Virus record (IMG/VR): IMGVR_UViG_3300017917_000095
Span: 20,898 to 84,897 of that record
Source: a virus
Reading direction: 5' to 3' (one strand)
Length of the DNA: 64,000 nucleotides
Numbering within the stretch: the first letter of the stretch is position 1; each line of letters starts with the position of its first letter. The notes beneath the pieces were generated by a model. That model made no database searches and had not been told where the DNA came from. It was given only the letters and a program-made list of their open reading frames with translations. The position numbers were made by a program, and so were the translations under genes. Below are positions 33,225 through 54,892 of the stretch, in pieces.

Positions 33225-33226
33225 TC

Positions 33227-35475: not shown

Positions 35476-36784
35476 CGATACACCTATTAAGATAGTGTAC
35501 AACTGGATTGGGCCTAGAGGCCCTATCATTAATACGGAGTTACCAAACATATTGAGCTTTGCTAACGTAAGCGAAGCCGCGTCAGTCAACAGTACAAGAT
35601 TCTGGGCTGATGATATCTATTGGCGTGTATTCATGCACAACGGTAACTATCCTATCAGTCCTGCATACACTGTCAGTGATAAGGATGCGTTTGTTTATCC
35701 CTATACACTAGCTTGGAGAACACAGTTTCATAATTACTTCTTAAATGATGGGGGAATTATGGAATTTAGCCACACCCCTAATCATATTATACATCAAGTC
35801 AGACACCACAATGGTTTCTTTTTAATTGACTATAGTCCTGAGGCATGGGTGCAAGACAATCAATTGCAAGTCATGCACAGTTATTTCAGTCATTTCAACG
35901 ATATTCCAATTGGTAAAGTGATATACATCACAGGCTGTATGAATGCACAAGAGATATATGACAACTGGTGTGATCGTAACGGTATTCCAGATGATCCTAT
36001 GCATCGTATGATAATGGTTCCGTTCCCTATCAGTCAACATGCTATCTCATGTCAGTTAGATCAAGTAGAAGAACCTGTATACGATGAGAATCACTTGCCA
36101 GAAAAGCTTTTCCTATGCTGGAATAGACGTTTCCGTCCACATCGCACACAGTTAGCACTTGCACTAGATAAAGCAGGGTTAGTAGATCGTAGCTATTATA
36201 GCATGAACCTAGTAGACCCAGAGATGAACAGTCTACATTTTAAGAATACAGTAGACATATATCACAACCCAATGCTAGGATTGACAAGTCAAGACGCAGA
36301 ACAGTTTATCAATAAGCTTCCTCTAGTGATTGACGGGGAAAGCGATATTATGCGTATGTGTGGAGACTTTGACCGTGCAGCAAAAGACTTCTATGCCAAT
36401 AGCTTAGTGTCAATTATTACTGAGACTAATTTTGAATTGTCTGAGTTAACTGCTACAGAAAAGACATGGAAGCCTGCTAAAGAAAAGCACCCGTTTATCA
36501 TGGTTGGAACAGCAGGTGCATTGCGTACATTACAAGAGTTTGGCTTTCAAACCTTTGATGAATTCTGGGACGAATCATATGATGATATAGAAGATCCTAG
36601 ACAACGTATGCACAAGATTATTCAAGTGTGTAAAGATATCGGATCTTGGACTCCTGAACAAGTACTTGACTTCAAGCGTAGAGTAAAGCCTATACTAGAG
36701 CATAACTACAAGATGTTGCACACCAATACTGCTAAACGTGTAGCAGATAAAATTAGAAAAGAAATGGCAAAGAGGACAAGATGA
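35462..36784 (+). CDS. TEKT-type glycosyltransferase-like protein 1
   Basis: A 440-residue protein whose C-terminal half has a domain seen in six proteins of this window: SIITETNF, then T332-E-K-T335, then HPFIMVG, then ELGF-like EFGFQTFDEFWDESYDDIED and a charged helical tail. The acidic-residue plus EK pattern resembles the donor-binding part of GT10 fucosyltransferase-like enzymes, so I infer a glycosyltransferase. LFLCWNRRFRPHR in the middle is a second conserved segment. It overlaps the radical SAM gene before it and the epimerase gene after it. Confidence 0.55.
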   Translation: MEINDDTPIKIVYNWIGPRGPIINTELPNILSFANVSEAASVNSTRFWADDIYWRVFMHNGNYPISPAYTVSDKDAFVYPYTLAWRTQFHNYFLNDGGIMEFSHTPNHIIHQVRHHNGFFLIDYSPEAWVQDNQLQVMHSYFSHFNDIPIGKVIYITGCMNAQEIYDNWCDRNGIPDDPMHRMIMVPFPISQHAISCQLDQVEEPVYDENHLPEKLFLCWNRRFRPHRTQLALALDKAGLVDRSYYSMNLVDPEMNSLHFKNTVDIYHNPMLGLTSQDAEQFINKLPLVIDGESDIMRMCGDFDRAAKDFYANSLVSIITETNFELSELTATEKTWKPAKEKHPFIMVGTAGALRTLQEFGFQTFDEFWDESYDDIEDPRQRMHKIIQVCKDIGSWTPEQVLDFKRRVKPILEHNYKMLHTNTAKRVADKIRKEMAKRTR

Positions 36785-37758
36785 AAAAGATATTAGTCTG
36801 TGGAGCAGGTGGATTCATTGGATCCCACTTAGTCAAGAAATTAAAACAAGATGGTCACTATGTAATTGGGGTAGATTTAAAAGCCCCGTTGTACGAGAAT
36901 TCTGTAGCTGATGAATTCCATTTAATGGACTTACGTGACCAACGTAGAGTCAGTAAGTTAATTAACGGAACAATTGACGAGATTTATCAATTGGCCGCTG
37001 ACATGGGTGGCGCAGGGTATATTTTTACGGGTGAACACGATGCTGATATCATGCATAATTCAGCAATGATTAACTTAAACATCCTGGATGAAATGCGTAC
37101 TAAAGGCGTGAAGAAGATTTTCTACAGTAGTTCAGCATGTATGTACCCAAGTCATAATCAAGAGGATCCTGACAATCCGTTACTTACAGAAGATAGCGCA
37201 TACCCTGCAAACCCAGACAGTGAGTATGGATGGGAGAAACTATTCAGTGAACGTCTATACATGAGTTATGCTAGAAACTACGGCTTTGATGTACGTATAG
37301 CACGTTTCCACAATGTATTCGGACCCTATGGTTCATGGAATAATGGCAAAGAGAAAGCACCCGCGGCTCTTTGCAGAAAAGTAGCAACTGTCGAGCCCGG
37401 CGGAACAATAGATATATGGGGTCCGGGCACACAAACTCGCAGCTTCTTATACATTGATGAATGTATAGAGGGTATGCAACGTTTGATGGATAGCGACTTC
37501 ACGGGCCCGGTAAATCTGGGCAGTGAACGCATGATTTCAATAAACAATCTAGTATTCTTGATCGGTCGTCTAGTAGACAAGAATGTGTGCATACGTAACG
37601 TAGACGGTCCAATGGGTGTCATGGGTCGTAACAGTGACAACAATCTTATCAGAGAAAAGCTAGGCTGGGCTCCGCAAGAGAACTTAGAAGATGGCTTGAT
37701 TAAGACATACAATTGGATTGTTGAACAAATAGAACAAGGTAAATCGGATGAGAAATGA
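36781..37758 (+). CDS. GDP-mannose 3',5'-epimerase-like
   Basis: NAD-dependent short-chain epimerase, best read as GDP-D-mannose 3',5'-epimerase, which makes GDP-L-galactose (and GDP-L-gulose). It has GAGGFIG at residues 8-14 for NAD, a SSSACMYP segment with the candidate catalytic Cys120, and the Y149-xxx-K153 pair. ARFHNVFGPYGSW and EKAPAALCRK are patterns I know from plant GME. At 325 residues it is a little shorter than the plant enzyme. It is joined by ATGA overlaps to glycosyltransferase-like genes on both sides, so its product is probably used by them. A different NDP-sugar epimerase is possible but fits less well. Confidence 0.8.
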   Translation: MKKILVCGAGGFIGSHLVKKLKQDGHYVIGVDLKAPLYENSVADEFHLMDLRDQRRVSKLINGTIDEIYQLAADMGGAGYIFTGEHDADIMHNSAMINLNILDEMRTKGVKKIFYSSSACMYPSHNQEDPDNPLLTEDSAYPANPDSEYGWEKLFSERLYMSYARNYGFDVRIARFHNVFGPYGSWNNGKEKAPAALCRKVATVEPGGTIDIWGPGTQTRSFLYIDECIEGMQRLMDSDFTGPVNLGSERMISINNLVFLIGRLVDKNVCIRNVDGPMGVMGRNSDNNLIREKLGWAPQENLEDGLIKTYNWIVEQIEQGKSDEK

Positions 37759-38837
37759 CAAGAGCCTACATCCTTCAGATTTACCCCAAGCACACTCCTG
37801 AATATTACATACCAATAATCCAAGATATCAAAGACAAGAACCCTGACAAAATTCTAATATTTTCGTTGGGGGAAATCACAGTAGAATATATCTATGAATT
37901 TCTGTTCAGAGATATACAGAGTTGGCTAATTGAGAATAACAAGTATCTCCATGTTTTATGGGCCGGCCCCGACATGGAGATAAGCCCGCATATACTAGGT
38001 GTCAACACAATAGGATCAGCGTTTGGAAATGTGTCAAACGTATATGCATTGAAAGAGCAGTACGGGGAACCCGATCTGTCTACATGTACCAAGTTGTTCA
38101 CATCATACAATAACAATGCCAAGTTCGAACGCAAATACTTTGTAGACTTGTGTGCAGAGTTTGATCTAATTAAAGATGGTGTTGTCACGTACAGATATCC
38201 TAATTTAAAAGTAGTCCCTAATTATGAATGGAAATATCATGATGGCTCTGTATTATTTGACGAGCCTAATTTTGATTTAGGAGCAAGTACATCCACTCCG
38301 GGCAGCTTACCCACTCGCTATTTCGAGGGGTTTATTGACATAGTATGTGAAACAGATAGCAGAAACGGCTTTTACATACCTACTGAAAAGACAGCTAAAC
38401 CATTGGGTGCAATGAAGCCGTTCTTAGTTATCAGTAGTATGCACTATCACAAGTTCCTATATGAAGAATACGGCATAGAAATGTACGAGGAATTGTTTGA
38501 CTATACTTTTGACAACGAACCTGATCTTAGAAAGCGCATACAAGGTGTAGTTCGAAACTTAGTTAGACTACGCAATAAGTTCAATAAGAACCCAGAACTA
38601 AGACAAGAGATATATGAGTCAATAAAGCCCAAATTGTTACGCAACAGAGAAATGGCTTTAAATACACTTCATACATTGCGTAGTAAAAACAAATTGATAC
38701 CAGACTGCTTGAAATTCATAACAGAAGAAGCTGATTACGAATTATTGGGTGAGACAGTAAATGACGGTGGTGGAAAGCATTTTTACACAGATAAAGCATG
38801 GCACCTAGACTCTAGGTTTTATTGGGAAAAGAAATGA
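37755..38837 (+). CDS. TEKT-type glycosyltransferase-like protein 2
   Basis: A 360-residue protein of the same domain type as the gene two before it. It has FIDIVCETDSRNG, then T210-E-K-T213, then MKPFLVISSMHYHKFL and ELFDYTFDNEPDLRKR. The N-terminal half, with IQDIKDKNPDKILIFSLGE, looks like a Rossmann-type strand-helix part. I infer a glycosyltransferase of GT10-like design; the acceptor is unknown. It follows the epimerase by an ATGA overlap and precedes an SGNH-like gene in the same manner. Confidence 0.55.
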   Translation: MTRAYILQIYPKHTPEYYIPIIQDIKDKNPDKILIFSLGEITVEYIYEFLFRDIQSWLIENNKYLHVLWAGPDMEISPHILGVNTIGSAFGNVSNVYALKEQYGEPDLSTCTKLFTSYNNNAKFERKYFVDLCAEFDLIKDGVVTYRYPNLKVVPNYEWKYHDGSVLFDEPNFDLGASTSTPGSLPTRYFEGFIDIVCETDSRNGFYIPTEKTAKPLGAMKPFLVISSMHYHKFLYEEYGIEMYEELFDYTFDNEPDLRKRIQGVVRNLVRLRNKFNKNPELRQEIYESIKPKLLRNREMALNTLHTLRSKNKLIPDCLKFITEEADYELLGETVNDGGGKHFYTDKAWHLDSRFYWEKK

Positions 38838-39721: not shown

Positions 39722-41645
39722 GAAGAAAAAGATCAGTTTCGTTAGTCCTAATTTTCAGCAAGGCCCGAAAGAATTAAACGCCTTCTATTTACCATATAGC
39801 ACGGGCGTATTATGGGCATACGTCAATCAATTTCCTATTGTACAAGACAACTATGAATTAGGGGAATTTATTTGGCGCAGAGAAGAAATCAGTGACGTTG
39901 TAGAACAATTAAAAGACAGCGATGTTGTCTGTTTCAGTTGTTATGTATGGAATCGTAGCTATACCAAAGAGCTTGGAAAAGCATTGAAATTAGCTAATCC
40001 AAACGTATTCATGATCGGTGGCGGCCCCGAATTTCCTATTGAAAAAGAAGATATCTTTGAACGTTATAGTTTCCTAGATATCTGTGTTAAGCTTGAGGGT
40101 GAAAAGACTTTCCGTCGCATACTAGAAGAACATGTACAAGAAACACCTGACTATAAATCAATCGCAGGCATGCTATTGAACGAGAACGGCAAGCCTTTTA
40201 ATACAGGTGACACTGTTCGTATTGACGACTTAGACACGATCCCAAGTCCTTATTTGACAGGCGTGTTTGACAAGCTTATGGCTAAGTTCCCCGAGATACG
40301 TTGGAACGGTACACTAGAAACTAACCGTGGTTGCCCTTATGCATGTACATTCTGTGACTGGGGTTCACTAACATATAACAAAGTAAAGATATTCGACCTA
40401 GAACGTGTGTTCGATGAACTAGAATGGATGGGTTCACATAACTTTGACTTTATCAGTATCACAGACGCAAACTTTGGTATCTTTGCCGAACGTGATAGCA
40501 TGATTGCTGATAAGCTTATTGAAGTACAAAAGAAGTATGGTAACCCACGTGCATACACAATCGCATGGGCAAAGAATCAAAAGAAAGAAGTTGTCGATAT
40601 TGTTAAGAAATTGATTTATGAGGGTGGCAGTAAGCTTGGCCTCAACCTATCAGTACAGACAATGGACGAGAACACACTAGAGATTATCAAGCGTAAGAAC
40701 CTAGATACAAACAAAATTGAAGATGTGTTTGCACTATGCGAAGAAAACAATATCCCATTGTACACTGAATTAATTCTAGGGTTGCCGGGTGAGACATTAA
40801 ACAGTTGGAAAGAAAACTTCTCCAGACTCTATAAAGCAGGCAATCACACAGGTATTACTGTATATCAGGCACAATTGCTTGAGAACGCTGAAATGAGTTT
40901 GACACAGCGTAAGATGTATAAGCTAGAAGGTAGTATGGTATATGACTATCTAGCCGGCTCATATAACGAATATAATCTACAAGAGGGTGTTGAGATTGTT
41001 GTTTCAACACGTGACTTGCCACCTGAGAAGATGTTGCAAGCACAATTATACAGTTGGTTTCAGAATACATTCCACATTAATGGAATTACTAATTACATTA
41101 GCCGATTACTATACAAGAAATACGGTGTTGAATACAGAGATTTCTACGATAAGCTTTACACATATGTTGAAAAAGACCCATGGTATAAGTCTGAGATTGA
41201 CAGAATTACCGAACACTATAAACACTGGGGAACACGTGGAAAGATTCATCATGATCTAGTTGAGGGTATGGAGATTCACGGTTGGAACTTGATTCACAGT
41301 ACAATCATTATCCTACAGAGTCAGGCTAAGCATAGTCATACCTTTGAATTGATTGAAGATTTCATGCGTAAAGAATACCCATTGGAAGAGTCATTGCATC
41401 AAGACTTAATGAAGTTACAGCGTAACTATCTAATTGACTATACACAAGCACAAAGCTATCCTAAGACCTTAGAGTTCAAGCATGATATCTTTGGGTATTT
41501 GCAGGACCAGAATGAATTAGAAGTTCCTTCTGTCTATGAATATGAGTTCCCGGAAGATAAAGATATGTCATTGCAAAAGTTCTGTGAACAAATCTTCTTT
41601 GCAAGACGTAGAAACTTCGGTAAAGCCTGGGTCGCTAGAAAATGA
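39714..41645 (+). CDS. B12-type radical SAM protein 1
   Basis: A 643-residue protein with an N-terminal B12-binding-like domain (strands around DVVCFSCYVWN and VFMIGGGPEFP) and a central radical SAM domain with CPYACTFC at C207, C211 and C214. LNLSVQTMDENTLEIIKRKN and ELILGLPGET are typical of the B12-binding radical SAM class (MiaB/BchE-like fold). A DxHxxG B12 ligand motif is not evident, so base-on or no-cobalamin variants are possible. Such enzymes often methylate unreactive carbons. The C-terminal 230 residues show no known domain. Substrate unknown; neighbours suggest a sugar. Confidence 0.75.
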   Translation: MHKKKKISFVSPNFQQGPKELNAFYLPYSTGVLWAYVNQFPIVQDNYELGEFIWRREEISDVVEQLKDSDVVCFSCYVWNRSYTKELGKALKLANPNVFMIGGGPEFPIEKEDIFERYSFLDICVKLEGEKTFRRILEEHVQETPDYKSIAGMLLNENGKPFNTGDTVRIDDLDTIPSPYLTGVFDKLMAKFPEIRWNGTLETNRGCPYACTFCDWGSLTYNKVKIFDLERVFDELEWMGSHNFDFISITDANFGIFAERDSMIADKLIEVQKKYGNPRAYTIAWAKNQKKEVVDIVKKLIYEGGSKLGLNLSVQTMDENTLEIIKRKNLDTNKIEDVFALCEENNIPLYTELILGLPGETLNSWKENFSRLYKAGNHTGITVYQAQLLENAEMSLTQRKMYKLEGSMVYDYLAGSYNEYNLQEGVEIVVSTRDLPPEKMLQAQLYSWFQNTFHINGITNYISRLLYKKYGVEYRDFYDKLYTYVEKDPWYKSEIDRITEHYKHWGTRGKIHHDLVEGMEIHGWNLIHSTIIILQSQAKHSHTFELIEDFMRKEYPLEESLHQDLMKLQRNYLIDYTQAQSYPKTLEFKHDIFGYLQDQNELEVPSVYEYEFPEDKDMSLQKFCEQIFFARRRNFGKAWVARK

Positions 41646-43702
41646 AAATATGGCACAGTATAGTAGAGAGTGAATTTAATAGCGACGGGTTATTAGCTAT
41701 ACTTGATGATGCTGTTAGTAAAAACGCATCTGAAGTTGTATTACTTGCTGAGACAGAATGGCAAACGCCCGGTGTTTATGATGCTATCGTTAATAGATAC
41801 AACGAAAAGAATATTAAACTAACCATTGTCTATTGTTCTGTTCATAGTCCGTACTATGAGAAATTCGCTAGTGATTCTAAATTACCTAGCGAGAATATTC
41901 ACTACTGGCCTACATACTGGTTGTCCTGGAGTCTTGAGAACCTAACAAGCACATATACATATCAGAATAATACAGTCGATCCTAGCAAATTCAAATACCC
42001 TTTTATCTCATTGAATAACCGTAGCCATTTGCATCGTTGTGTATTCATTGACGAGATGGCTAAACAGGATTTGATTGATCGTGGAGTTGTCACGTGGGTA
42101 AAGCATTTGAGCGAGAATCCAGACTACCCATACAAACACTTTGATAACCGTCAGTTGACATTGAATGATGACTTCGAGAACAAATTGGATTCGTTTATGT
42201 TGCCCAATGAGTTCAATGAATCACTGTTTCACATGGTTACCGAAGCTACGCATCTTACTGGGTTTATATCTGAAAAGACAGCTATCCCATTGTTCATGAA
42301 GAAGCCGTTTATTGTACTGTCTGCACCCCACTATCAAAAGCATTTAGACGATCTAGGATTCTTGCGCTATGACGAAATTATCGACTATAGCTATGATGAT
42401 ATAGAGGATTTAGAGTTACGCACCGAGAAATTTGTAGCCAATATTCATAGATTCAAAGATATGAATTTAGCAGAGGTCTATGAATTATTGCGTGAAAAGA
42501 TAGAATACAATCACAATCGTGCAATAGAACTGACAAAGGATCTTAGCTATATCCCTGAGCCTATACGTGAACGCTATCAACATGTACAGACAAATGGTGT
42601 CGAATTCTTAACTGACCGTAGATATATCAAGTTCGTGAATCAAGCATCTAACCCTATAGTCTATCATATATGGGATGATCGCTTGCCTAGAGTCATTGAG
42701 AAGTTAGATACTACGTTACATGGCATAGAACACATAATTCTCAATGCTGCTATCGAATACAATTACGGTGTTATCGGTGGCAGAAAAGAATTAATGGATA
42801 AGCTTATCCAGTTGACAGATTCTGCTGGAATAAAACTTGATGTCATAACGGGAACATGCGATACCTATAATTTAATTGACACTAATATACATAAGCATGT
42901 CAGTGTATATTACTGGCCCACGTTCTGGTTAACAATGCTATTGATGCGTTTGTCAGTTAGTCCCAACTATCAGATGAATATGGCAGTTGGGCTAGATGTA
43001 TTCAAGATACGTGTAAATGAAAACACTCCGTTAAAGTATCCATATATCTCTATGAACAAGGCCCCAAAGCTTCACAGGGCAATGCTGATGGACATGCTTG
43101 CTAAGTATGAATTGATTGACAAGGGTGTAGTAATTTGGCGTGAACCCGTACAGGGCTATCAGTTTGAATACTGGACTGAAGAGATTATGCTACGTGACCA
43201 GAAAGATAAGTTTGTCAGTCAAGAGCGTGTTCCGTTAGAATATCCGTTATCATTCATTCAAGTTGTCCCTGAGTCTGACGAGGACATGTTTATACTGAGC
43301 GAAAAGACAGGCATGGCTATCTTCTTCAACAAGCCCTTTATTGTCATGGCTTGTGTCAACTATCATAAGATACTAAGTGAGCTTGGGTTTAAATTGTATG
43401 ACGAATTGTTTGACTACAGTTTTGACTGTGAACCCGATACCATGAAGCGTTGTGAAATGATCGCCCAGAATGTGCAGAAGTATGCAGAAAAGACACCGGA
43501 CGAACTAAACCAACTATACAAGTCAGTGTATGAGAAGTGTGTCTACAATAAGGAATTAGCTATTAAACTAGCTACTAGCAGTGAATTGATTCCCCCGGTT
43601 TGGCAAGACATAGTGGATAGCCAGATGAAAAATAATATAGCCGACTACCCTGTCGCTATAAATAATTTCATAAAATCCACTGAGCATGAATTTAGACTTT
43701 AA
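41642..43702 (+). CDS. Tandem-duplicated SEKT glycosyltransferase-like protein
   Basis: A 686-residue protein made of two copies of the [T/S]EKT domain. Copy 1 has S210-E-K-T, MKKPFIVLSAPHY and EIIDYSYDDIED. Copy 2 has S553-E-K-T, NKPFIVMACVNYHKIL and ELFDYSFDCEPD. Each half also has a preceding HYWPTYWLS or VYYWPTFWLT segment and a PYIS/PFIS-N-x-x-x-x-LHR strip, so the whole unit of about 340 residues was duplicated. The same layout occurs as a single unit at 61831-62853. I infer a bidomain glycosyltransferase; either half could have become structural. Confidence 0.6.
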   Translation: MKIWHSIVESEFNSDGLLAILDDAVSKNASEVVLLAETEWQTPGVYDAIVNRYNEKNIKLTIVYCSVHSPYYEKFASDSKLPSENIHYWPTYWLSWSLENLTSTYTYQNNTVDPSKFKYPFISLNNRSHLHRCVFIDEMAKQDLIDRGVVTWVKHLSENPDYPYKHFDNRQLTLNDDFENKLDSFMLPNEFNESLFHMVTEATHLTGFISEKTAIPLFMKKPFIVLSAPHYQKHLDDLGFLRYDEIIDYSYDDIEDLELRTEKFVANIHRFKDMNLAEVYELLREKIEYNHNRAIELTKDLSYIPEPIRERYQHVQTNGVEFLTDRRYIKFVNQASNPIVYHIWDDRLPRVIEKLDTTLHGIEHIILNAAIEYNYGVIGGRKELMDKLIQLTDSAGIKLDVITGTCDTYNLIDTNIHKHVSVYYWPTFWLTMLLMRLSVSPNYQMNMAVGLDVFKIRVNENTPLKYPYISMNKAPKLHRAMLMDMLAKYELIDKGVVIWREPVQGYQFEYWTEEIMLRDQKDKFVSQERVPLEYPLSFIQVVPESDEDMFILSEKTGMAIFFNKPFIVMACVNYHKILSELGFKLYDELFDYSFDCEPDTMKRCEMIAQNVQKYAEKTPDELNQLYKSVYEKCVYNKELAIKLATSSELIPPVWQDIVDSQMKNNIADYPVAINNFIKSTEHEFRL

Positions 43703-44504
43703 GAAATACAAACGCATATTTGCATTTGGGTGTAGTTTCACCCAATATAGATGGCCTACATGGGCAGACTTAATTTCAATGGAGTCACCTGATGCAATCT
43801 ACCGTAATTACGGAATCTCTGGATTAGGCAATCTCGCTATATCCACACGTATTATTGAAGGAAGCAAGCGTTACCAATTCAACAGTGATGACTTGATACT
43901 AGTAATGTGGTCTACATTCTGTAGAGAAGATCGTTGGTTGCGTGGTGGATGGTTTGCTCAAGGTAGTGTTTATAACTCAACATACCCCGACGATTGGGTC
44001 AGAGAATATACTGACCCTACTGGATATCTAATTCGTGACCATGCACTCATCTACTCAACAACAAAGTATTTAAAGAGTCTAAATTGCGATTCGGTTATAT
44101 TAAGAAGCAGTCCCTTTGACTACACGGAAGAAAAACCTGACAATGAAACAAAGCAATTGCATGAGCAATTGTCATTGATATACAAGAATGATTACAATAA
44201 TTTGCCATTGGACTTGTATACTTTTAATGGTAGAAATTGGGGCAATGACAGACAAGAATTTTTAGATGACTATGGTTACCTGGATTCTAATAAAGAACCC
44301 TACATGCGTAAAGATAGTCATCCTTTTTCAGGAACATACGCAAGATACCTAGAGTTTTTAGGTATTAAGCTTAGTGACAATACAAAACAATTCGCAAATG
44401 AATTTGACGAATACATGAAGACAAAACCCAGAACAACTGAGATGATTAAGAAGATAGCATTCTTGCGTCAAAACGTTGATTTAGGAATAAACAGAATTTT
44501 TTGA
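43686..44504 (+). CDS. SGNH-like hydrolase or acyltransferase 2
   Basis: A 272-residue protein with IFAFGCSFTQYRWPTW at the N-terminus, where Ser17 lies in the expected nucleophile block, a YRNYGISGLGNLA block, and SHPFSGTYARYLEFLG near the C-terminus with a candidate catalytic His. It shares the G-C-S-x-T-Q pattern with the gene at 38834 but is otherwise diverged. Its start overlaps the end of the tandem glycosyltransferase gene by 17 bases. Likely an esterase or O-acyltransferase acting on a glycan; not shown directly. Confidence 0.5.
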   Translation: MNLDFKKYKRIFAFGCSFTQYRWPTWADLISMESPDAIYRNYGISGLGNLAISTRIIEGSKRYQFNSDDLILVMWSTFCREDRWLRGGWFAQGSVYNSTYPDDWVREYTDPTGYLIRDHALIYSTTKYLKSLNCDSVILRSSPFDYTEEKPDNETKQLHEQLSLIYKNDYNNLPLDLYTFNGRNWGNDRQEFLDDYGYLDSNKEPYMRKDSHPFSGTYARYLEFLGIKLSDNTKQFANEFDEYMKTKPRTTEMIKKIAFLRQNVDLGINRIF

Positions 44505-44511
44505 GGAACAT

Positions 44512-47500
44512 ATGAAAAAAGTAGCAATGATTGGTGTAGGTAAGTTAGGACAAGACTGTGCAGAAGTAATGTCAGACGCAGGGTATGATGTAGTGGGCTA
44601 TGATGTAGCACCCCGTAGTCCTGCTTTCCCAATGCGTAACTCAATTGAGGAAGCAGTCAAAGATAGAGACATGATCTTTATCGCAGCTCCAACACCCCAT
44701 GATCCTATCTATGGTGGAGAGACACCAACAAGTCACTTGCCTAACAAGGACTTTGATTATACCATTGTTACTGAAATTCTAAAAGAAGTTAACAAATACG
44801 TTACTAAGAGTCAATTAGTTGTTCTCATCAGCACAGTGCTACCCGGAACAGTTCGCAATATCCTAGAGCCTTGTATCACTAACGCAAGATTCATTTACAA
44901 CCCTTACCTCATAGCTATGGGTACTGTAAAATGGGACATGGTAAATCCAGAAATGGTAATTATCGGTACAGAGGATGGTAGCCTCACTGGTGATGCTAGT
45001 GAACTAATTGACTTCTACAAGACCTTCATGCAGAATAATCCTCGCTATGAAGTTGGTACATGGGACGAAGCAGAATCAATTAAGATTTTCTATAATACGT
45101 TCATCAGTACAAAGCTTGCACTTGTTAACATGATTCAGGACGTTGCTGAGACTAATGGTAATATCAACGTTGATGTAGTTACAAATGCATTGAAGAAATC
45201 AACATATCGCATCATGGGTCCTGCATATATGACAGCAGCTTTCGGCGATGCAGGAGCATGTCACCCACGTGATAACATTGCACTACGATATCTAACAGAT
45301 AGACTAGACTTGGGCTATGACTTGTTTGATGCTATCATGACTGCACGTGAAGTACAAGCAGAGCGTATGGCATTGCGTTGCTTAAAGAACGGACGTAATG
45401 TTACTATCGTTGGTAAAGCATACAAGCCATGCGTTCCATACACAATCGGATCTGCATCTATGTTAGTGGGCTACTATATTGAGAAGCACGGTGGCAACTT
45501 AAACTACTATGATCCTAACACAGGTGATCTAGACTTGCGTGAAGATTGGACTCAAGTCTATCTGATCGGCTATTGGGAAGAGTGGGTCGAGAAGCTAGAG
45601 TTTAAGGATCCGGGCTGTGTAGTTATTGACCCATGGCGCAAGCTTACAAGCAAGCAACATACAGGGGAAATCATTCACTACGGTGATACACGTCCTAAGA
45701 AAACATACAGTGTTCCTGAGTCTACTATACAAACAATGCGTACTCAAGTCTATGAGATGTTCCCTGAACTAAGACAATATGATAGCGACATTCATCTAGT
45801 TGATGCAACTATCAATATGGATACAACATTTGTTATGCGCCCGACTGAGGCAGTCGTCAAAGAATTACTAGAAGCTAAGGCTAATGGGCGTAGTAAGTTT
45901 ATGTTCTTTGCACCCACAGAAGCATTCATGCCACATGTTGTTTCTAAGGTTCAACGTATTGCTAGCATCCTTGATGGAAAGATCGATGAATCTGATATCA
46001 TCGTTGTTACCGGCGTGATTGACGCCGACGAAATCTACGAGCGTCTTTTAAAAAAAAACGGTTGGAACAAGCGTCTTAACCTCTTAAACTGTCATTTCTT
46101 TAACTACATAACCACTACATATGCCCGTGGATACGAGTATATTGGTGGTTATGATGTACGCTTCCGTGGCAAAATATTCACGTGCTTTAATAAACTGAAC
46201 CGCGAACATCGTCTAGTGATGCTAGAGCGTATGCTACAAACGGGTATGATTAAGAATGGCTACTATTCATTTGAGGGTGAGGGTAATTTCAAAGATACTA
46301 TTCCATCATTGAGTGATGAAAAATTCCCTGCAATCAAGCACAATCAGGACATGTTCCCGTTGCGTTTGAACATCACACCTGATAGACACAACCCAGTTGA
46401 CATTCAACCCGATGACTTGCATTATTACAAGGACAGCTATTTCTCAATCGTAAGTGAGACATTGTTCTATGATAGCAACAGAGTAGGTCAGGCTCATCGT
46501 CCATTCGTTGAGGACTCATTGTTCTTGACAGAGAAAACATATCGTTGCTTTGCAACACTGCACCCATTCATACTGTTAGCAAGACCCCATTCATTAAAAG
46601 AATTGCGTAAGCAGGGCTTCAAGACCTTTGCACCATTCATCAATGAAGCATACGATGATATCGAGAACGATGACCAACGCTTTGAGGCTATCTTCAAAGA
46701 AATCACTAGACTGAATAACTTTACTGGCGATGATTGGACATTGTTCCAAGAAAAGATTAAGCCTATTGTAGAGTACAACAAAGACTTTTTCCATAGTAAC
46801 AAAGACTTTGCTATCACTAAAGACTATCTAAAGTTCTTTGGTCAATTGCAACCAAGAGCATACGTTGAGCCTGTTAGAATCGAATCAGTCATAGAGGCAG
46901 TTAATGAAGCACCTGTGATTCCTACATATATGCAAACTGAGTCTACTATGGGTGACGAATTGCCTACAATGGAAGATATCAGTGAGAAGCTTGACTGGAG
47001 AAACAGACAGTTAGAATATCCTAATGGTATAACACTTAACTTCCCTTGCCACATTGACGGCGGAGGTGATGATTACAAAGATGAATTGATTGCATTGATC
47101 GAACGTACCGGACAGAAAACTAATTATGAATCAGCACTTGATTGGTGTGCAGGTCACGGTCCGTTTGGCTTTGAATTGCTAGCCAACAACATAGCAGATC
47201 ATGTCACATTCCAAGATTGCTATGTTACCGCAGTCGATTCATGCATCAAAAATGGACAAGAGAATAACATAGGTGATAAGGTTACGGGTTATACTTGTGA
47301 CAAGATATCATTGATTCCCGAATCTGAAAAGTTTGATTTGGTAGTAGCAAACCCTCCCCATAGCAATACACTAGAGAATATCGAACGCAATCAATTCTTT
47401 GCCAATACTGCTAGAATGATTGTAGATGACAATTTTGTTATGCACAAAGAGTTCTTTGCAAATATCCATAAATATCTAACTGATGATGCAGATGTGTATA

Positions 47501-47631
47501 TCACAGCAGGAAACAACCTAGCACCTTTTGCTAACTGGGCTTATGCTGGCGGACTAAAGTTTATGGGCTATAGCCCATGCTCGGCAGCACAAGGTGGCAT
47601 CTATCACTTCCGAAAAATTAATCCAAACTGA
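44512..47631 (+). CDS. Fusion: nucleotide-sugar dehydrogenase, TEKT domain, methyltransferase
   Basis: A 1039-residue three-part protein. Residues 1 to about 390 are a UDP-glucose/GDP-mannose 6-dehydrogenase-type enzyme: GVGKLG at 8-13, ESIKIFYNTF around K191, Cys250 in GACHPRDN as the catalytic thiol, and GKAYKPCVPYTIGSAS. Residues about 430-830 hold a TEKT-type glycosyltransferase-like domain (VSETLFYDSN near 648, T673-E-K-T676, GFKTFAPFINEAYDDIEN). Residues about 870-1039 are a class I methyltransferase: ALDWCAGHGPFGFELL, then VVANPPHSN near 946, the NPP motif of N- or O-methyltransferases. I infer oxidation of a sugar nucleotide, glycosyl transfer and methylation held in one chain. The spacing to neighbours is 7 and 49 bases. 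Confidence 0.75.
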   Translation: MKKVAMIGVGKLGQDCAEVMSDAGYDVVGYDVAPRSPAFPMRNSIEEAVKDRDMIFIAAPTPHDPIYGGETPTSHLPNKDFDYTIVTEILKEVNKYVTKSQLVVLISTVLPGTVRNILEPCITNARFIYNPYLIAMGTVKWDMVNPEMVIIGTEDGSLTGDASELIDFYKTFMQNNPRYEVGTWDEAESIKIFYNTFISTKLALVNMIQDVAETNGNINVDVVTNALKKSTYRIMGPAYMTAAFGDAGACHPRDNIALRYLTDRLDLGYDLFDAIMTAREVQAERMALRCLKNGRNVTIVGKAYKPCVPYTIGSASMLVGYYIEKHGGNLNYYDPNTGDLDLREDWTQVYLIGYWEEWVEKLEFKDPGCVVIDPWRKLTSKQHTGEIIHYGDTRPKKTYSVPESTIQTMRTQVYEMFPELRQYDSDIHLVDATINMDTTFVMRPTEAVVKELLEAKANGRSKFMFFAPTEAFMPHVVSKVQRIASILDGKIDESDIIVVTGVIDADEIYERLLKKNGWNKRLNLLNCHFFNYITTTYARGYEYIGGYDVRFRGKIFTCFNKLNREHRLVMLERMLQTGMIKNGYYSFEGEGNFKDTIPSLSDEKFPAIKHNQDMFPLRLNITPDRHNPVDIQPDDLHYYKDSYFSIVSETLFYDSNRVGQAHRPFVEDSLFLTEKTYRCFATLHPFILLARPHSLKELRKQGFKTFAPFINEAYDDIENDDQRFEAIFKEITRLNNFTGDDWTLFQEKIKPIVEYNKDFFHSNKDFAITKDYLKFFGQLQPRAYVEPVRIESVIEAVNEAPVIPTYMQTESTMGDELPTMEDISEKLDWRNRQLEYPNGITLNFPCHIDGGGDDYKDELIALIERTGQKTNYESALDWCAGHGPFGFELLANNIADHVTFQDCYVTAVDSCIKNGQENNIGDKVTGYTCDKISLIPESEKFDLVVANPPHSNTLENIERNQFFANTARMIVDDNFVMHKEFFANIHKYLTDDADVYITAGNNLAPFANWAYAGGLKFMGYSPCSAAQGGIYHFRKINPN

Positions 47632-47680: not shown

Positions 47681-49945
47681 TTGGATTTCACGTTAAGATC
47701 ATTGGCTGTTGATGAACTCAAGCCCAAGGAACGCCCTACAGAGGATATCGCAGATGCACGCCATCGTAGTATGATGGAAGCTATTGCGCCTTATGCTAAA
47801 ACAACAGTACAAAAGAACTTGACCCCTGTGTACGTTGACTACAAGACACGCAACACTAAGCTAGTATTGGTACTCTGCCCAGAGTGGAGTCCATATATGC
47901 CCCCATTCAGTTTAGCAAGACTCTCGGGTGTTGCTAAGAGTGCAGGATATGAGACAAACATCATGGACTTGAATGTGAAAGCATACAACAAGTTCAAGAA
48001 TGACTGGTGGCCCAAGCAACGCATACCATTCAGACTATGGGATCCTAGTAGCTCATGGCATTGGTTGGGTGATACGTACTTGAACGACATTCACCCGTTG
48101 TTAGGCCCTGAGATTCTAGGTCCAGCAGTAGATGAAATCATTGCTATGAACCCTGACGTTGTAGGCTTCAGTGTTTACTATATCAGTGAAGAACCTACTA
48201 AGTGGATGTGTCAAGAGATTAAGCGCCGTGCACCTCACATCAAGATTGCAGTCGGTGGCCCTAACGTACACAAGAGTTGGTTCGCAACACACCCATACTA
48301 TGACTATGTTGTTGTAGGTGAAGGTGAACAGAACTTGCTAGTTATGCTAGACGAGATTGAGGAGAAGAAAGAAGTAGAGTATCCTCGCTATCTTACTCAA
48401 CCCGAAGATCAGCGTATCAACATTAACGGCTTACCCATGCCTGACTATGAATCAATCGATTTCAGTCAGTATGAATTGCCCAATGGTGTGAACAGCGAGA
48501 TTAGTCGAGGCTGCACAGCTAAGTGTACATTCTGTGAAGAAACACACTTTTGGAAGTATCGTCAACGTCAAAGTGTTGACTTGATTACAGAGATTGAATG
48601 GTTGTACTACAACAAAGGTACAGACATTATTTGGTTCATTGATAGTCTTATCAATGGCAACCCCAAAGAACTACGTGCGTTTGCATTAGCTCTTAAAGAG
48701 AAAGACTTGAAGGTTAAGTGGACTGGTTATGCTCGTTGTGACGGTCGTATGGACTATGAGTATCTCAAAGACTTAGCAGACGGTGGCTGTATCATGTTCA
48801 ACTTTGGTGTTGAGTCCGGTAGTCAAAAAGTCCTAGACGATATGGCTAAGGGTGTTACTATCAAAGAGATGGAACAGAACTTTATCGACTGTAAGAAAGT
48901 TGGTATATGGGCTGCTACTAACTGGATTGTCGGCTTCCCCACAGAAGAATGGCAAGACTATGCAGACACGATGACGTTCTTGTGGCGTATGCGTAATAAC
49001 AACATCAACAACGCAGGTCTAGGTGTTGGTTATGGTATGGGCCCTGAGACTATTGTAGGTCAGAACCCGCACAAGTTTAATATCAGTTGGCACAAGTATC
49101 AAGGTCACTGGATACGTAATGACTTTACATTCGGTGGCACACACTTAATGATTCGTGTAAAGACATGGCACATGTTTGCTGACTTCTTGCGTGGCGTTAC
49201 AGAAGTACCGATCAGCTATCCTATTCGTACTGCATTAGAGAAAGATCACTATAGGATCAAACTCAATCACGATACTGTGGCAAAGGACGTTGAGTATGAG
49301 AAGTTTGATTATAATATCATTAAGCCCAATCTTAATCCTTTTGCTGATTCACTTGTTAACGAGATGTGGCCTTTTCTGAGGATGCTATGGAAGTGTCGCG
49401 GTGGTTACGAAGCTGAGATACATTTCAATCCTGAGATTGATTTGAAAGAGTTTGGTACACAGTTTGGTCCCGGTATGTTCAATGCTGTATACAAGTTTAA
49501 GATCAGCGATAGCGGTAAGTGGGAAGCAGACTTTGATATGAAGTTTGAGCAGATCGATAACCCATACGATGATCGTGAGCCTCCCCCGGCAGGACGCAAA
49601 GGTCCGTTCTATGCACAAGATTATTCACGCATGATGAGTAACACTGCATTACGTGCCCGTAAGTTAGCAAAGCCTACATGGGATACAACTGAAGGTCGTG
49701 ATGGTCAAGACTTTACTGACCTATTGAATGAAGAAGCAGAACTAAACAAGACAATTGATTTTAGTTTTGATTATCGTTACATTGGCTATGGTAACTGGGG
49801 TGACTATCAAGACTATGAAGTTGCAGTGTCTGATACTTCACGTGAAGTTATCCCTGAGAAGGAAGCAATGAGTGCGTTAGACTTTGCAAAGCAAGTACAG
49901 ACAATCAGTATTGATTCTATCAAACGTAAGAAAGATGTTGAATGA
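47681..49945 (+). CDS. B12-type radical SAM protein 2, TTG start
   Basis: A 754-residue protein that opens with a stretch containing KPKERPTEDIADARHR, then a B12-binding-like domain (VVGFSVYYISEEPTK, IAVGGPNVHKSW, YDYVVVGEGEQNL), then a radical SAM domain with CTAKCTFC at C278, C282 and C285, and GVESGSQKVLDDMAKGV and WIVGFPTEEW. The last ~250 residues are a long unknown domain. The best start is TTG at 47681 behind AGGAG; no suitable ATG precedes the conserved part. Its N-terminal PKERP-ADAR motif recurs in the 2313-residue protein. Probably a methylating or rearranging enzyme acting on a sugar or lipid; inference. Confidence 0.75.
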   Translation: MDFTLRSLAVDELKPKERPTEDIADARHRSMMEAIAPYAKTTVQKNLTPVYVDYKTRNTKLVLVLCPEWSPYMPPFSLARLSGVAKSAGYETNIMDLNVKAYNKFKNDWWPKQRIPFRLWDPSSSWHWLGDTYLNDIHPLLGPEILGPAVDEIIAMNPDVVGFSVYYISEEPTKWMCQEIKRRAPHIKIAVGGPNVHKSWFATHPYYDYVVVGEGEQNLLVMLDEIEEKKEVEYPRYLTQPEDQRININGLPMPDYESIDFSQYELPNGVNSEISRGCTAKCTFCEETHFWKYRQRQSVDLITEIEWLYYNKGTDIIWFIDSLINGNPKELRAFALALKEKDLKVKWTGYARCDGRMDYEYLKDLADGGCIMFNFGVESGSQKVLDDMAKGVTIKEMEQNFIDCKKVGIWAATNWIVGFPTEEWQDYADTMTFLWRMRNNNINNAGLGVGYGMGPETIVGQNPHKFNISWHKYQGHWIRNDFTFGGTHLMIRVKTWHMFADFLRGVTEVPISYPIRTALEKDHYRIKLNHDTVAKDVEYEKFDYNIIKPNLNPFADSLVNEMWPFLRMLWKCRGGYEAEIHFNPEIDLKEFGTQFGPGMFNAVYKFKISDSGKWEADFDMKFEQIDNPYDDREPPPAGRKGPFYAQDYSRMMSNTALRARKLAKPTWDTTEGRDGQDFTDLLNEEAELNKTIDFSFDYRYIGYGNWGDYQDYEVAVSDTSREVIPEKEAMSALDFAKQVQTISIDSIKRKKDVE

Positions 49946-50544: not shown

Positions 50545-51496
50545 GAACGAGTGGGATCCACTAAAGAAAGTAATTGTGGGTCTAGCAGACTTTGCACGTA
50601 TTCCTGATATGGACAAGAGTTTGCGTACTGTAAACTACAGCCATGTCAAAGATGATAGCGAACTACCCAAAGGTACATTGTACCCTGTACAAGTTATACA
50701 AGAAGCTAATGAAGACCTAGATAGACTATCAAGCGAACTAACTAAATTGGGCATTGAAGTCGTGCGCCCAATGAATCGCCCCACTGATTACTACAACTAT
50801 TGTCCACGTGACTTGGCAACAATTATTGACACGAAGGCAATTGTTGCTCCTATGAGTTTGCAATCTCGTAAGGATGATTACAAAAACATAGAGTCAGAAT
50901 TAAAGAACATCTATTATGTACCCAACGATCAGGGTGATAACAACTATAACTTAGGTAGCATTGGTAACAAAGACGTTCTAGCATTGAATGAGTTCTATCC
51001 AAAGTTTGATGCTGCTAACTTGATTCGTGCTAACGATGATATCTTATATCTTGTGAGCAATTCGGGTAATAAGAAAGGTGCATATTATTTGCAAGAGTTG
51101 CTAGGTAGTAAATACAAAGTACATATGCTTGAAGGTGTTTACAGCTACATGCATATTGATAGTACCGTAGCATTTTTGCGTGAGGGTTTGATGTTGTTGA
51201 ATCCTTCGAGGATTCCAGATAAGAGCATATTACCTGCACCCTTTAATACATGGGATGCAATCTATGCTCCTGAACCAGTTGACATTGGGTACATGGGTTA
51301 CAACAACGCAAGTCCTTGGGTAAGCATTAATCTACTGTCTATCAATCCTAACTTAGTTGTTATGGAAGAGCGTCAAGAAAACTTGGCAAGAGAATTAGAG
51401 AAGTATGGTATTGAGTCATTGATGTTGCCAATGCGCCATGCTAGAACATTGGGAGGTTGCTTCCATTGTGTTACGTTAGATTTGATAAGAGGTTGA
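50522..51496 (+). CDS. Amidinotransferase (StrB/AGAT family)
   Basis: A 324-residue amidinotransferase, which moves an amidino group from arginine to an amine; StrB does this to aminocyclitols in streptomycin synthesis. The family landmarks are EWDPLKKVIVG at the N-terminus, CPRDLATII, DAANLIRANDDILYL (Asp), YMHIDSTVAFL (His) and GGCFHCVTLDL at the end, whose Cys is the catalytic nucleophile. It starts at ATG 50522, inside the end of the aminotransferase gene, so amino-group formation and guanidino-group addition sit side by side. The acceptor may be the amino sugar made next door. Sure of family, not of acceptor. Confidence 0.8.
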   Translation: MNKIQVSKNEWDPLKKVIVGLADFARIPDMDKSLRTVNYSHVKDDSELPKGTLYPVQVIQEANEDLDRLSSELTKLGIEVVRPMNRPTDYYNYCPRDLATIIDTKAIVAPMSLQSRKDDYKNIESELKNIYYVPNDQGDNNYNLGSIGNKDVLALNEFYPKFDAANLIRANDDILYLVSNSGNKKGAYYLQELLGSKYKVHMLEGVYSYMHIDSTVAFLREGLMLLNPSRIPDKSILPAPFNTWDAIYAPEPVDIGYMGYNNASPWVSINLLSINPNLVVMEERQENLARELEKYGIESLMLPMRHARTLGGCFHCVTLDLIRG

Positions 51497-51498
51497 GA

Positions 51499-53277
51499 AT
51501 GGCAGAAAAATGGATGCGTGGTCATGTTAGTAGATTCTGGGATCATGAAGATTACAAGAAGTTTGATTATGTAAAACAACCATTGATGGATTCAGAGATT
51601 GCTACATGGAAATCTCAAGGATACGATTACGTAAAAAGCTTTAGTGGTTCTATGTATGACAATAGAAACCCTATGCCAGAGTGGGTAAAGCGTTTTGATA
51701 AAATCTTCAACCTAAAGAACATGACCTATAATTTCTACAAGATGCAACAGTTAGAAATTATGCCAGAGCACGTAGATCACTTCCAGACATACATGAAGAT
51801 GTTTGATGCGAAGTATCAAAACGTCACTAGGATTCTAGTGATGTTGGAAGACTGGAAGCCCGGTCACTACTTAGAAATTGATGGAGTCGGTGTAGTTAAT
51901 TGGGTAGCAGGTGATTACTTCATGTGGGAAAGTGATGTTCCCCATGCTGCTGCCAACATCGGTACGGAAGATCGCTACACTTTGCAGATCACCGGTACTG
52001 TATTCAAGACAGAAGATGTATACAAGTACATACACTGGTACAACATTCCAGGGCTAGAGACAAAGAAAGAATCGTTGTTCTCACCTGAAATGGATTTCAT
52101 GTATAAGCACATGAGAAAAGAAACTCCATACTACATCTACATGTACAACAGAGAGATTGCAGAGTTAGAAACGATGAAGCATGATCCTGAAGTAGTGGAT
52201 CACTTGAACAAAACAGGTGTGGATATCTATCTGAACGAACCACTATGTTCATATCGTTTGGGTGATAAGCATGGCCCTGATGGTGGTGTTCACTCGTTGA
52301 TTTTTTACAGTGAATTCACCGATGACCAAGTTCAAGATACTCGTTTACTGAGGTCGGTCGAACTGGATAGCATAGAAAAATATGTAACAAATAACAATCT
52401 TACTAATGTCACGGTAAGAACGTGTGACTACAACATTGAGCGTTTCTATACACACTATCTTCCAAAGATGAAATTAGTAACCGACGACCTTTTCTTGAAG
52501 TATTTTGACCTCAATGAATTCGAGCCTCTCACAGAAGAGGAAGAAGACCTCAGTCATTTTACACGCAGATTTGTGTGCATGAATTGGAGATATGCACCGC
52601 ACCGTTTGATAACTGCTGCATATCTAGCCAATAAGATAGACACAGTTAACCTCACATGGTATTTCAAGTCTGATATGGGAACAGTTAGCAAAGAGCCATG
52701 GTACAGCTTCCATGAATGGATTAAGAAAAATCCATCAGCATTCTCTAAGATGATAACAGGTATCAACAAATTGAACAGTGGTTCTCCTTGGAACTTAGAC
52801 CTAGCAGTCAAAGAAGCAACATTAATAGATCAATCTTATTATAAGCGTATGTTCCCTGCAGGGGTTATATTTGACCAAAAAACTACTAAGTTTGGTGACA
52901 ATAAAGATAGACTGAAATATCTCTATCATGATTCCTTCTGTGATGTTGTTACTGAATCGCGTTTTGCACAACCAACTGCAAACTACAGCGAGAAAGTGTA
53001 TCGTCCGATGTATTACAAGAAGCCATTCATTATGGTTGGGCCCCCTCATACACTTGAACACATGAGAGAGCAAGGATTTATGACCTTCAATGACTTCTGG
53101 GATGAATCATATGATTATATCGAAGACCATGAAGAAAGAATGTTTGCAATCTTTAAAGTCATTGATAAGATCAACTCTATGCCTATTCCAGAGTTACAGA
53201 AGATGTACGCTCAGATGAAACACATCGTGGATCATAACAGAAGAACATTGTTAAAAAAATGCCCTAGCAGGTACTAA
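51499..53277 (+). CDS. Fusion: 2OG-Fe(II) oxygenase and SEK-type glycosyltransferase-like domain
   Basis: A 592-residue two-domain protein (ATG 51499 behind an AAGAGG site). The N-terminal ~200 residues look like an Fe(II)/2-oxoglutarate oxygenase: H91-x-D93 in EHVDHF, H149 in DVPHAAANIG, and an Arg near 159 in DRYTLQITG, with GHYLEIDGVGVVNWVAGD between. From about residue 340 comes the recurrent glycosyltransferase-like domain: FVCMNWRYAPHRL, VVTESRF, S497-E-K499, YKKPFIMVGPPHTLEHM, GFMTFNDFWDESYDYIED. I infer hydroxylation and transfer on the same glycan. A variant of the usual EKT motif (EKV) is present. Confidence 0.65.
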   Translation: MAEKWMRGHVSRFWDHEDYKKFDYVKQPLMDSEIATWKSQGYDYVKSFSGSMYDNRNPMPEWVKRFDKIFNLKNMTYNFYKMQQLEIMPEHVDHFQTYMKMFDAKYQNVTRILVMLEDWKPGHYLEIDGVGVVNWVAGDYFMWESDVPHAAANIGTEDRYTLQITGTVFKTEDVYKYIHWYNIPGLETKKESLFSPEMDFMYKHMRKETPYYIYMYNREIAELETMKHDPEVVDHLNKTGVDIYLNEPLCSYRLGDKHGPDGGVHSLIFYSEFTDDQVQDTRLLRSVELDSIEKYVTNNNLTNVTVRTCDYNIERFYTHYLPKMKLVTDDLFLKYFDLNEFEPLTEEEEDLSHFTRRFVCMNWRYAPHRLITAAYLANKIDTVNLTWYFKSDMGTVSKEPWYSFHEWIKKNPSAFSKMITGINKLNSGSPWNLDLAVKEATLIDQSYYKRMFPAGVIFDQKTTKFGDNKDRLKYLYHDSFCDVVTESRFAQPTANYSEKVYRPMYYKKPFIMVGPPHTLEHMREQGFMTFNDFWDESYDYIEDHEERMFAIFKVIDKINSMPIPELQKMYAQMKHIVDHNRRTLLKKCPSRY

Positions 53278-53309: not shown

Positions 53310-53408
53310 ATGTTCATCATCAAATTTTTCAAGAACTTAATCAAAGAGTACAAGTACCGCAAACGCATCAAAGAACTACGTAAACGTGATCCATTCATCT
53401 ATAAGTGA
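53310..53408 (+). CDS. Small basic 32-aa peptide
   Basis: A 32-residue frame between the oxygenase fusion gene and the carbamoyltransferase gene, under the perfect late promoter. Twelve of 32 residues are Lys or Arg against three acidic, with hydrophobic Ile/Phe/Leu spaced between; ends are MFIIKFFKNL and KRDPFIYK. The pattern could form an amphipathic basic helix, suited to binding nucleic acid, a membrane or an acidic partner. It could also be a substrate for the radical SAM enzymes. No Shine-Dalgarno site is obvious (GGGCAAAAC before ATG). It is too short for a family call, but the promoter and codon use support it as a real gene. Confidence 0.55.
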   Translation: MFIIKFFKNLIKEYKYRKRIKELRKRDPFIYK

Positions 53409-53413
53409 GTCGA

Positions 53414-54892
53414 ATGAACTACGTAGGAATCAGCAACGGTTTCCACGACGCCGGCATCTCAGTCGTGGACTCAAACGGTGACATTCTATTTGCTGGGCAC
53501 AGCGAAAGATACAGCAAACACAAACATGATAAGGACTTGTGCTTAGGTATAGCACAAGATGCCGCATCGTACATTAAGGGTGAATCAGAGATTCACTACT
53601 ACGAACGCCCATGGATGACTGGTCTAAGACAACTCAGAGCAGGCCAGCCTATCAATTTTGCTACAGCTAAAATGCGTATCGGTAAGAATGTTCTAAAAGT
53701 ATTCGGCAATCCAAACGTTACTACACATGAGCATCACCTAAGCCATGTAGCCGCCGGATTTCAAACAAGCCCATACAACGATGCAACTGTGGTAATCATT
53801 GACGCTATCGGTGAGTTTGATTGCATCTCAGTTTGGGATGCATGGTACGATGACAAGGGTTATGCACAATACAAGAAGCTGTGGAGTAAGAAGTATCCGC
53901 ACAGTATTGGTTTGTACTACAGTGCAATGACACAACGAGTGGGACTAAAGCCATTAGATGAAGAATACATTTTAATGGGCATGGCTGCTTATGGCAAGCC
54001 TATACACTTCAATCAGATTGAAGGTCAATTGTTAGAGAATAGCACAACACTAGACTTCAAAGAGAATCTACACATCGGTGTACCTGAAGGCTTTTTAGAA
54101 GGCGCCGATGAAATGGATATTGCCGCTAGCGCACAGGCACTAGTAGAATATCTAATCAAAGCTGTAATGAGCAAAGCACGTATGTTGGGCAAGAGTCGCA
54201 ACCTTGTATATGGTGGTGGTGTTGCTTTGAACTGTCTTGCTAATCGTGAGTTGGGCAAGTACTTTAATGATATGTGGATTGTGCCTAATCCAGGTGATTG
54301 TGGTTCTAGCTTAGGTGCAGCCGCATTAGGATACGGTAAAAGATTGAACTGGAAGGATGCCTTCTTAGGGCATAACATCCCCGGTGATTATCCCAGTAAT
54401 CGTATCATTGACGAGCTAGTTAAGAATAAAATAGTAGGTGTGGCCTCAGGTCGTGCAGAGTTCGGTCCACGTGCGTTGGGCAATAGATCATTGCTTGCAG
54501 ACCCCAGAGGTGATACAATCAAGGATAAAGTAAATGAAATCAAACGCAGACAAAAATTCAGACCCTTTGCGCCCGTTATTTTGGAGGAGCTGGCTCATCA
54601 CTACTTTGATATGCCTAGCAATTGGGATAACAGTCGGTATATGCAAGTCATCGCTCGTTGCAGGTATCCTGAGTTATTTCCTGCTATCGTCCACGCTGAT
54701 GGCACTAGTCGTGTACAGACTGTTCCGAAAGATGGTAGTGGAATTAGAGAACTCCTCGAAAAGTGGTACGTCTTAACTGAATGCCCGATACTGTTAAACA
54801 CCTCTCTCAATATCAGAGGGGAGCCAATGGTCAATGATAGATTCGATGCTGATAGATTCGAAAACCTATACAATGTAAAAGTGATATCGTAA
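53414..54892 (+). CDS. Carbamoyltransferase (NodU/CmcH/TobZ family)
   Basis: O-carbamoyltransferase of the NodU/CmcH/TobZ type, which transfers a carbamoyl group from carbamoyl phosphate via carbamoyl-AMP onto a hydroxyl of a sugar or antibiotic. It starts YVGISNGFHDAGISVVD (ATG 53414; a GTG nine bases earlier overlaps the peptide's stop and is an alternative). The metal-binding block HEHHLSHVAAGF is at residues 105-116, GMAAYGKP follows, and the C-terminal YrdC-like end has FGPRALGNRSLLADPR near 350 and FRPFAPVI. At about 492 residues it is a little shorter than NodU. It stands one base before the repeat-protein gene, whose product may be its partner or target. Confidence 0.85.
   Translation: MNYVGISNGFHDAGISVVDSNGDILFAGHSERYSKHKHDKDLCLGIAQDAASYIKGESEIHYYERPWMTGLRQLRAGQPINFATAKMRIGKNVLKVFGNPNVTTHEHHLSHVAAGFQTSPYNDATVVIIDAIGEFDCISVWDAWYDDKGYAQYKKLWSKKYPHSIGLYYSAMTQRVGLKPLDEEYILMGMAAYGKPIHFNQIEGQLLENSTTLDFKENLHIGVPEGFLEGADEMDIAASAQALVEYLIKAVMSKARMLGKSRNLVYGGGVALNCLANRELGKYFNDMWIVPNPGDCGSSLGAAALGYGKRLNWKDAFLGHNIPGDYPSNRIIDELVKNKIVGVASGRAEFGPRALGNRSLLADPRGDTIKDKVNEIKRRQKFRPFAPVILEELAHHYFDMPSNWDNSRYMQVIARCRYPELFPAIVHADGTSRVQTVPKDGSGIRELLEKWYVLTECPILLNTSLNIRGEPMVNDRFDADRFENLYNVKVIS

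Follow-up and report, generated by a model that had tools for sequence, protein, structure and literature searches.

Dehydrogenase, glycosyltransferase-like and methyltransferase domains share one protein chain in a tailed phage

What would a phage make with a protein in which a dehydrogenase, a glycosyltransferase-like domain and a methyltransferase are joined, and do the three domains act on the same sugar? The question is raised by an ORF in the window, by which we mean the whole stretch of 64,000 nucleotides analysed here (bases 20898-84897 of an 84,897-base IMG/VR virus record). This ORF, at 44512-47631 on the plus strand, encodes one uninterrupted chain of 1039 amino acids beginning at an ATG. 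A sequence-only reading had described the chain as a three-part fusion and had proposed that a sugar nucleotide is oxidised to a uronic acid, then transferred, then methylated. The fusion itself is borne out: a single ORF holds all three domains, four more contigs encode such a chain, and every domain is under purifying selection.

We regard the architecture, a dehydrogenase (DH) followed by a glycosyltransferase-like (GT) and a methyltransferase (MT) domain, as secure to the point of near certainty. Homology places DH at residues 3-394, GT at 396-800 and MT at 825-1034, and the full-length AlphaFold2 model (pLDDT 85, pTM 0.72) agrees, giving three folded units with the same borders. The chain is thus laid out as an NDP-sugar 6-dehydrogenase domain (44512..45693, residues 1-394), a TEKT-type GT-B glycosyltransferase-like domain (45697..46863, residues 396-784), a poorly conserved linker that is predicted to be disordered (46864..46989, residues 785-826) and a class-I N-methyltransferase domain (46984..47613, residues 825-1034), all on the plus strand. 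In the model, DH meets GT without a disordered linker, and the stretch 785-826 ahead of MT is disordered (pLDDT <50); its identity between fusions is 13-27%, as against 39-91% for the domains. The order of oxidase, transferase and methyltransferase is supported by domain matches and by the model. Searches with hidden Markov models matched DH and MT but found no Pfam, PHROG or NCBIfam match for the middle part (residues ~396-784).

That middle part had been called a glycosyltransferase-like TEKT domain; its TEKT lies at residues 673-676, and the predicted fold now points to a GT-B enzyme that belongs to no catalogued family. The domain is modelled with pLDDT 90, and the leading structural matches are GT-B enzymes. 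The best in VIA-align is the GT10 alpha1,3-fucosyltransferase 2nzx (Z 11.1, 253 residues, 4.2 A, ~10% identity in the structural alignment), in the company of GtfC/Gtf3, the T4 enzymes BGT and AGT, and exostosins; many GT-B families score within 1-2 Z units of one another, and Foldseek puts starch synthase and trehalose-phosphate synthase on top. The residues R567, E649, E674, K675, R723 and N756 are conserved. When the family profile was compared with one built from ten GT10 proteins (P 6e-5, 67 columns, probability 65%), S-I-V-S-E-T ... L-T-E-K-T aligned with F-S-x-x-x-E-N ... x-T-E-K-[IL]; this match sets E649 and the invariant E674-K675 against GT10 residues, E674-K675 falling on the donor-site pair, which in the H. 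pylori FucT is Glu249 and Lys250 (PMC11468063). From the shared fold and the S-x-x-x-E-[TN] and [ST]-E-K motifs at matching positions, we take the domain to be a GT10-like GT-B enzyme outside PF00852. The name GT10 itself was dropped, PF00852 matching none of the 87 family members and nothing in G000 at E 10. No Pfam model recognises these 87 proteins in a consistent way, and against the PDB their profile gave just weak, partial matches to unrelated proteins.

Six ORFs of the window, the fusion counted, carry seven TEKT domains. The others, all on the plus strand, are paralogues at 35462..36784, 37755..38837 and 61831..62853, a protein with two such domains at 41642..43702, and an ORF at 51457..53277 in which an Asp/Arg beta-hydroxylase-like N-terminus (weak, E 0.007) is joined to a TEKT-type domain. 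Close relatives by fold in BFVD are unnamed phage proteins, a mimivirus protein and one DH-GT fusion, A0A6J5TB28. The latter, 788 residues long and from an uncultured Caudovirales phage, is 39% identical to our chain over 837 columns but has no MT domain; it is annotated by its DH N-terminus only, leaving the GT part unannotated. As to a possible cellular origin, a pattern search of 84,980 genomes found only 12 loci of the family, several of them on short metagenome-bin contigs that may be viral, and in one class 3 of 190 genomes have it.

The methyltransferase assignment of the C-terminal domain stands, and its chemistry can be narrowed. Besides a Pfam match (MTS, 3e-7), MT has the motifs HxDGGG (847-852), WCxG (878-881) and, as previously noted, NPPH (947-950). 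Motifs of the form (N/D)PP(Y/F/H) mark N-methyltransferases. The only sequence relative in the PDB is 9l4q (1e-29 by profile, 6e-19 in another search), titled carbamoyl N-methyltransferase Asc-Orf2 with SAH, a stand-alone protein of 214 residues that shares all three motifs and matches MT over the whole domain (Z 21.4, 195 residues, 3.9 A, ~25% identity). There is also weak similarity to PrmC-type amide N-methyltransferases. A PrmC/HemK N5-glutamine (protein) methyltransferase was considered and rejected, TIGR03534 scoring 38 bits against an NCBIfam equivalog cut-off of 199 and the PDB profile search returning 9l4q only. With 9l4q as the sole solved relative and a carbamoyltransferase in the same cluster, N-methylation, with a carbamoyl group as the likeliest acceptor, describes the last step better than methylation in general.

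That carbamoyltransferase, of the NodU/Nol O-carbamoyltransferase type, is encoded at 53405..54892 (plus strand; Carbam_trans_C 4.7e-47). Of 11 contigs in which MT is fused, 9 have a carbamoyltransferase gene further downstream on that strand, its C-terminal domain lying 4.2-9.6 kb from the MT end. The remaining two (L006 and L086) stop 1.4-1.9 kb past MT, so that the count among contigs of sufficient length is 9/9. A one-to-one coupling of the two enzymes was nevertheless not upheld: the carbamoyltransferase goes with the DH neighbourhood whether MT is present or not, occurring in ~18 of 32 DH records that have no fused MT and in none of seven records with free-standing MT relatives. Since their co-occurrence is not strict, the case for a carbamate rests on the 9l4q structure match together with the neighbourhood. 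In one genome, cellular MT relatives adjoin a radical SAM-like protein.

The N-terminal domain is a dehydrogenase by family and by fold. Pfam detects UDPG_MGDP_dh_N (PF03721; 6e-16, 58.9 bits, cut-off 27) and the central domain (PF00984; 1e-13, 51.6 bits, cut-off 25.4), and phrog_9148, UDP-glucose dehydrogenase, matches residues 3-347 at 3e-94. The UDP-binding C-terminal domain PF03720 stays below its cut-off (14 bits vs 30), but the model contains its fold, aligning with entire UGDH chains and superposing on the UDP-glucose dehydrogenase 3gg2 with Z 33.6 (361 residues, 2.7 A, 21% identity). The catalytic cysteine is at position 250, where it had been placed. With UDP-glucose 6-dehydrogenase (EC 1.1.1.22; 3gg2, human UGDH) the domain shares the fold, the catalytic Cys, Lys, Asn and Asp (Cys250, Lys191, Asn195 and Asp254, invariant in 81 aligned DH rows) and the Rossmann glycines, likewise invariant among its relatives; Thr108 is kept as well. 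It differs in being fused to GT and MT and in its motif NPYLIAMG (130-137), which replaces the NPEFLREG (NPEFLxEG) of canonical cellular enzymes. By alignment to the human enzyme (3khu numbering), Glu161 and Glu165 have become Tyr132 and Met136. All 81 rows have NPYLIAMG, an invariance that partly reflects sampling because the rows were collected by similarity to the window protein; a huge-phage homologue reads NPFFIAMG, and among 200 sampled genomes of one bacterial phylum the nearest homologue reads NPEFIALG. With both of these active-site glutamates gone, the oxidation to a uronic acid that had been proposed is possible but not assured.

At its left end the window carries genes for the baseplate wedge and for virion structure, which show a tailed phage with a T4-type baseplate; at 3531-23120 a giant ORF encodes 6529 amino acids, the first 1000 of which match the virion structural protein phrog_10938. 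The fusion lies inside a same-strand run of genes, from ~26 kb to 63 kb, resembling sugar-making and sugar-modifying enzymes. Along with the TEKT-domain ORFs and the carbamoyltransferase (found in 29 of 80 DH loci within the fetched flanks), the run holds radical SAM and B12-radical SAM proteins, an epimerase, a weakly amidinotransferase/deiminase-like protein and a short DegT-type aminotransferase. Directly upstream of the fusion is an SGNH-like ORF (43686..44504, plus strand; GCSFT motif, by eye), homologues of which occur in 22 of the 80 loci and, in 11, end <400 bp ahead of DH; directly downstream is a B12-binding radical SAM protein (47681..49945, plus strand), with a homologue in 32/80. 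A second B12-binding radical SAM protein, at 39714-41645, resembles KedN5 C-methyltransferases (4e-76), and the two suggest C-methylated sugars. The 200-residue DegT-type aminotransferase and the amidinotransferase-like ORF that follows it (49942-51496) recur as a pair in 13 DH loci and suggest amino or guanidino groups. Four tandem twitch-domain radical SAM proteins occupy 29357-34498 (NF033640, 313-373 bits, cut-off 170; homologues in 41/80 loci). The ORF at 54893-61834 encodes a 2313-residue protein with some thirty copies of the unit FDFSWHPDPxDPPYIYxFGTQxxKTGGPxYxxPGATExKY; its C-terminal part resembles, by eye, the 317-residue ORF at 28410-29363, and 14 of the 80 loci have a homologue.

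Comparable sugar and LPS-type clusters occur in cyanophages and pelagiphages (P-SSM2, S-SSM7, Bellamy and HTVC008M). The cultivated phages Bellamy and HTVC008M have a DH of the same subfamily, 53-63% identical, beside carbamoyltransferase, methyltransferase and NadE-like genes. Unlike in the window, these genes are separate, and tblastn against 50,697 phage records did not find the TEKT-type GT. The NadE-like genes of Pelagibacter phage HTVC008M (L195, 7243-8001) and Synechococcus phage Bellamy (L196, 6467-7207) adjoin or lie near the DH gene; their products may serve to amidate a sugar acid instead of making NAD.

Taken with its neighbours, the chain seems to us, by a modest balance of probability, a natural fusion of three enzymes that oxidises and transfers a sugar and N-methylates a carbamate on a phage-made glycan. 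The surrounding genes would form a glycan-synthesis cluster of a T4-type phage. DH would oxidise C6 of a nucleotide sugar through Cys250 with NAD+, and the GT-B domain would transfer a sugar, probably the DH product, to an acceptor. The NodU-type carbamoyltransferase of the cluster would place a carbamoyl group on the sugar, and MT, using SAM, would methylate a nitrogen, most likely of that group, to give an N-methylcarbamate. The probable target is a phage-made glycan, either of the tail fibre or of the host surface. We infer the substrates, the order of the steps, the carbamate as methyl acceptor and the destination of the glycan, and likewise that DH, GT and MT act in sequence on one sugar.

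An active site in which both glutamates are lost and the Cys/Lys/Asn/Asp set is invariant also suits an outcome that we consider unlikely, though not negligible. The DH thioester may not be hydrolysed, so that the reaction stops at the aldehyde, or the acyl group is passed to an amine and MT methylates the nitrogen of the resulting uronamide. Human UGDH mutated to E161Q was crystallised with a trapped thiohemiacetal intermediate (3KHU; PMC3184952), NadE-like genes adjoin DH in Bellamy and HTVC008M, and the weak similarity of MT to amide N-methyltransferases points the same way. However, neither a NadE-like nor an AsnB-like gene was recognised in this cluster of the window, the closest MT structure takes its name from a carbamoyl acceptor and not from an amide, and the proposed active water, which in the human enzyme sits on Asp280 (here Asp254), may suffice for hydrolysis (PMC3184952).

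Slightly less probable is the classical route, in which a UDP-glucose 6-dehydrogenase makes a uronic acid, GT transfers it and MT adds an O-methyl group as ether or ester. The family and fold of DH, its retained Cys, Lys, Asn and Asp and the order of the domains agree with this, but the replacement of the glutamate motif in all 81 aligned relatives does not, nor do the NPPH that MT has in common with the carbamoyl N-methyltransferase and its weak PrmC-type resemblance. We give similarly low credence to a bolder proposal: DH, lacking the two usual glutamates, would make an aldehyde, activated or amidated C6 group and not plain uronate, the new GT-B family would take it, and MT would methylate a carbamoyl or amide nitrogen of the product, so that a single chain makes a viral sugar that is not known to occur in cells.

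Whichever product it makes, the fused chain recurs. Searching for it elsewhere revealed the identical DH-GT-MT architecture in four further IMG/VR contigs (L006, L086, L088 and L089), as well as the partial joins DH-GT, GT-MT and DH-MT. None of the five fusions contains a stop, and all five keep the listed catalytic residues and motifs. Identity among them is 88-91% for DH, the slowest-evolving domain, 44-85% for GT and 39-81% for MT. Between the window and L086, Nei-Gojobori dN/dS is ~0.07 for DH, ~0.09 for GT and ~0.07 for MT; in MT synonymous change is close to saturated, which makes these ratios rough. Each of the three domains is under strong purifying selection. By architecture, the 81 DH rows divide into 5 DH-GT-MT, 12 DH-GT, 3 DH followed by GT-MT, 3 DH-MT and 58 DH alone, of which many adjoin a gene for a TEKT-type GT. 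On the DH tree, well-supported branches require at least three changes of the DH-GT label; therefore, DH-GT joins were gained or lost more than once. In other viruses neighbouring genes, separate or joined in part, encode these domains, so the join in our chain is real. Beside one DH-GT fusion (L009), an MT-like ORF at 8288-8944 has lost NPPH and the glycine motif and is, from these losses, probably a decayed copy.

These comparisons also bear on whether DH works at all. That it is degenerate or a scaffold, with GT and MT alone active, might be suspected from the two missing glutamates, but is very improbable given the invariance of Cys250, Lys191, Asn195, Asp254 and the Rossmann glycines and given that DH changes least among the fusions. 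An assembly or sequencing artefact, conceivable for a metagenomic contig, is ruled out for practical purposes by the recurrence of the fusion in four more contigs, whose MT is 39-81% identical, by the absence of stops and by strong purifying selection.

A near-constant DH with variable GT and MT would fit a scheme in which a single donor-making step supplies a variety of transfer and tailoring steps. Joined in one chain, DH, GT and MT probably carry out a single sequence of reactions leading to an unusual surface sugar. A 2010 account of the large LPS-type clusters of T4-like phages noted that it was not known whether they are functional or simply 'stuffer DNA' (PMC3037559). Strong purifying selection on three fused domains speaks for function here, as does the fact that these partners were joined repeatedly. 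The fusion suggests which enzymes of a phage sugar cluster work together, indicates an uncatalogued family of phage glycosyltransferases with seven copies in one window, and points to a methylcarbamate as a testable decoration of phage sugars.
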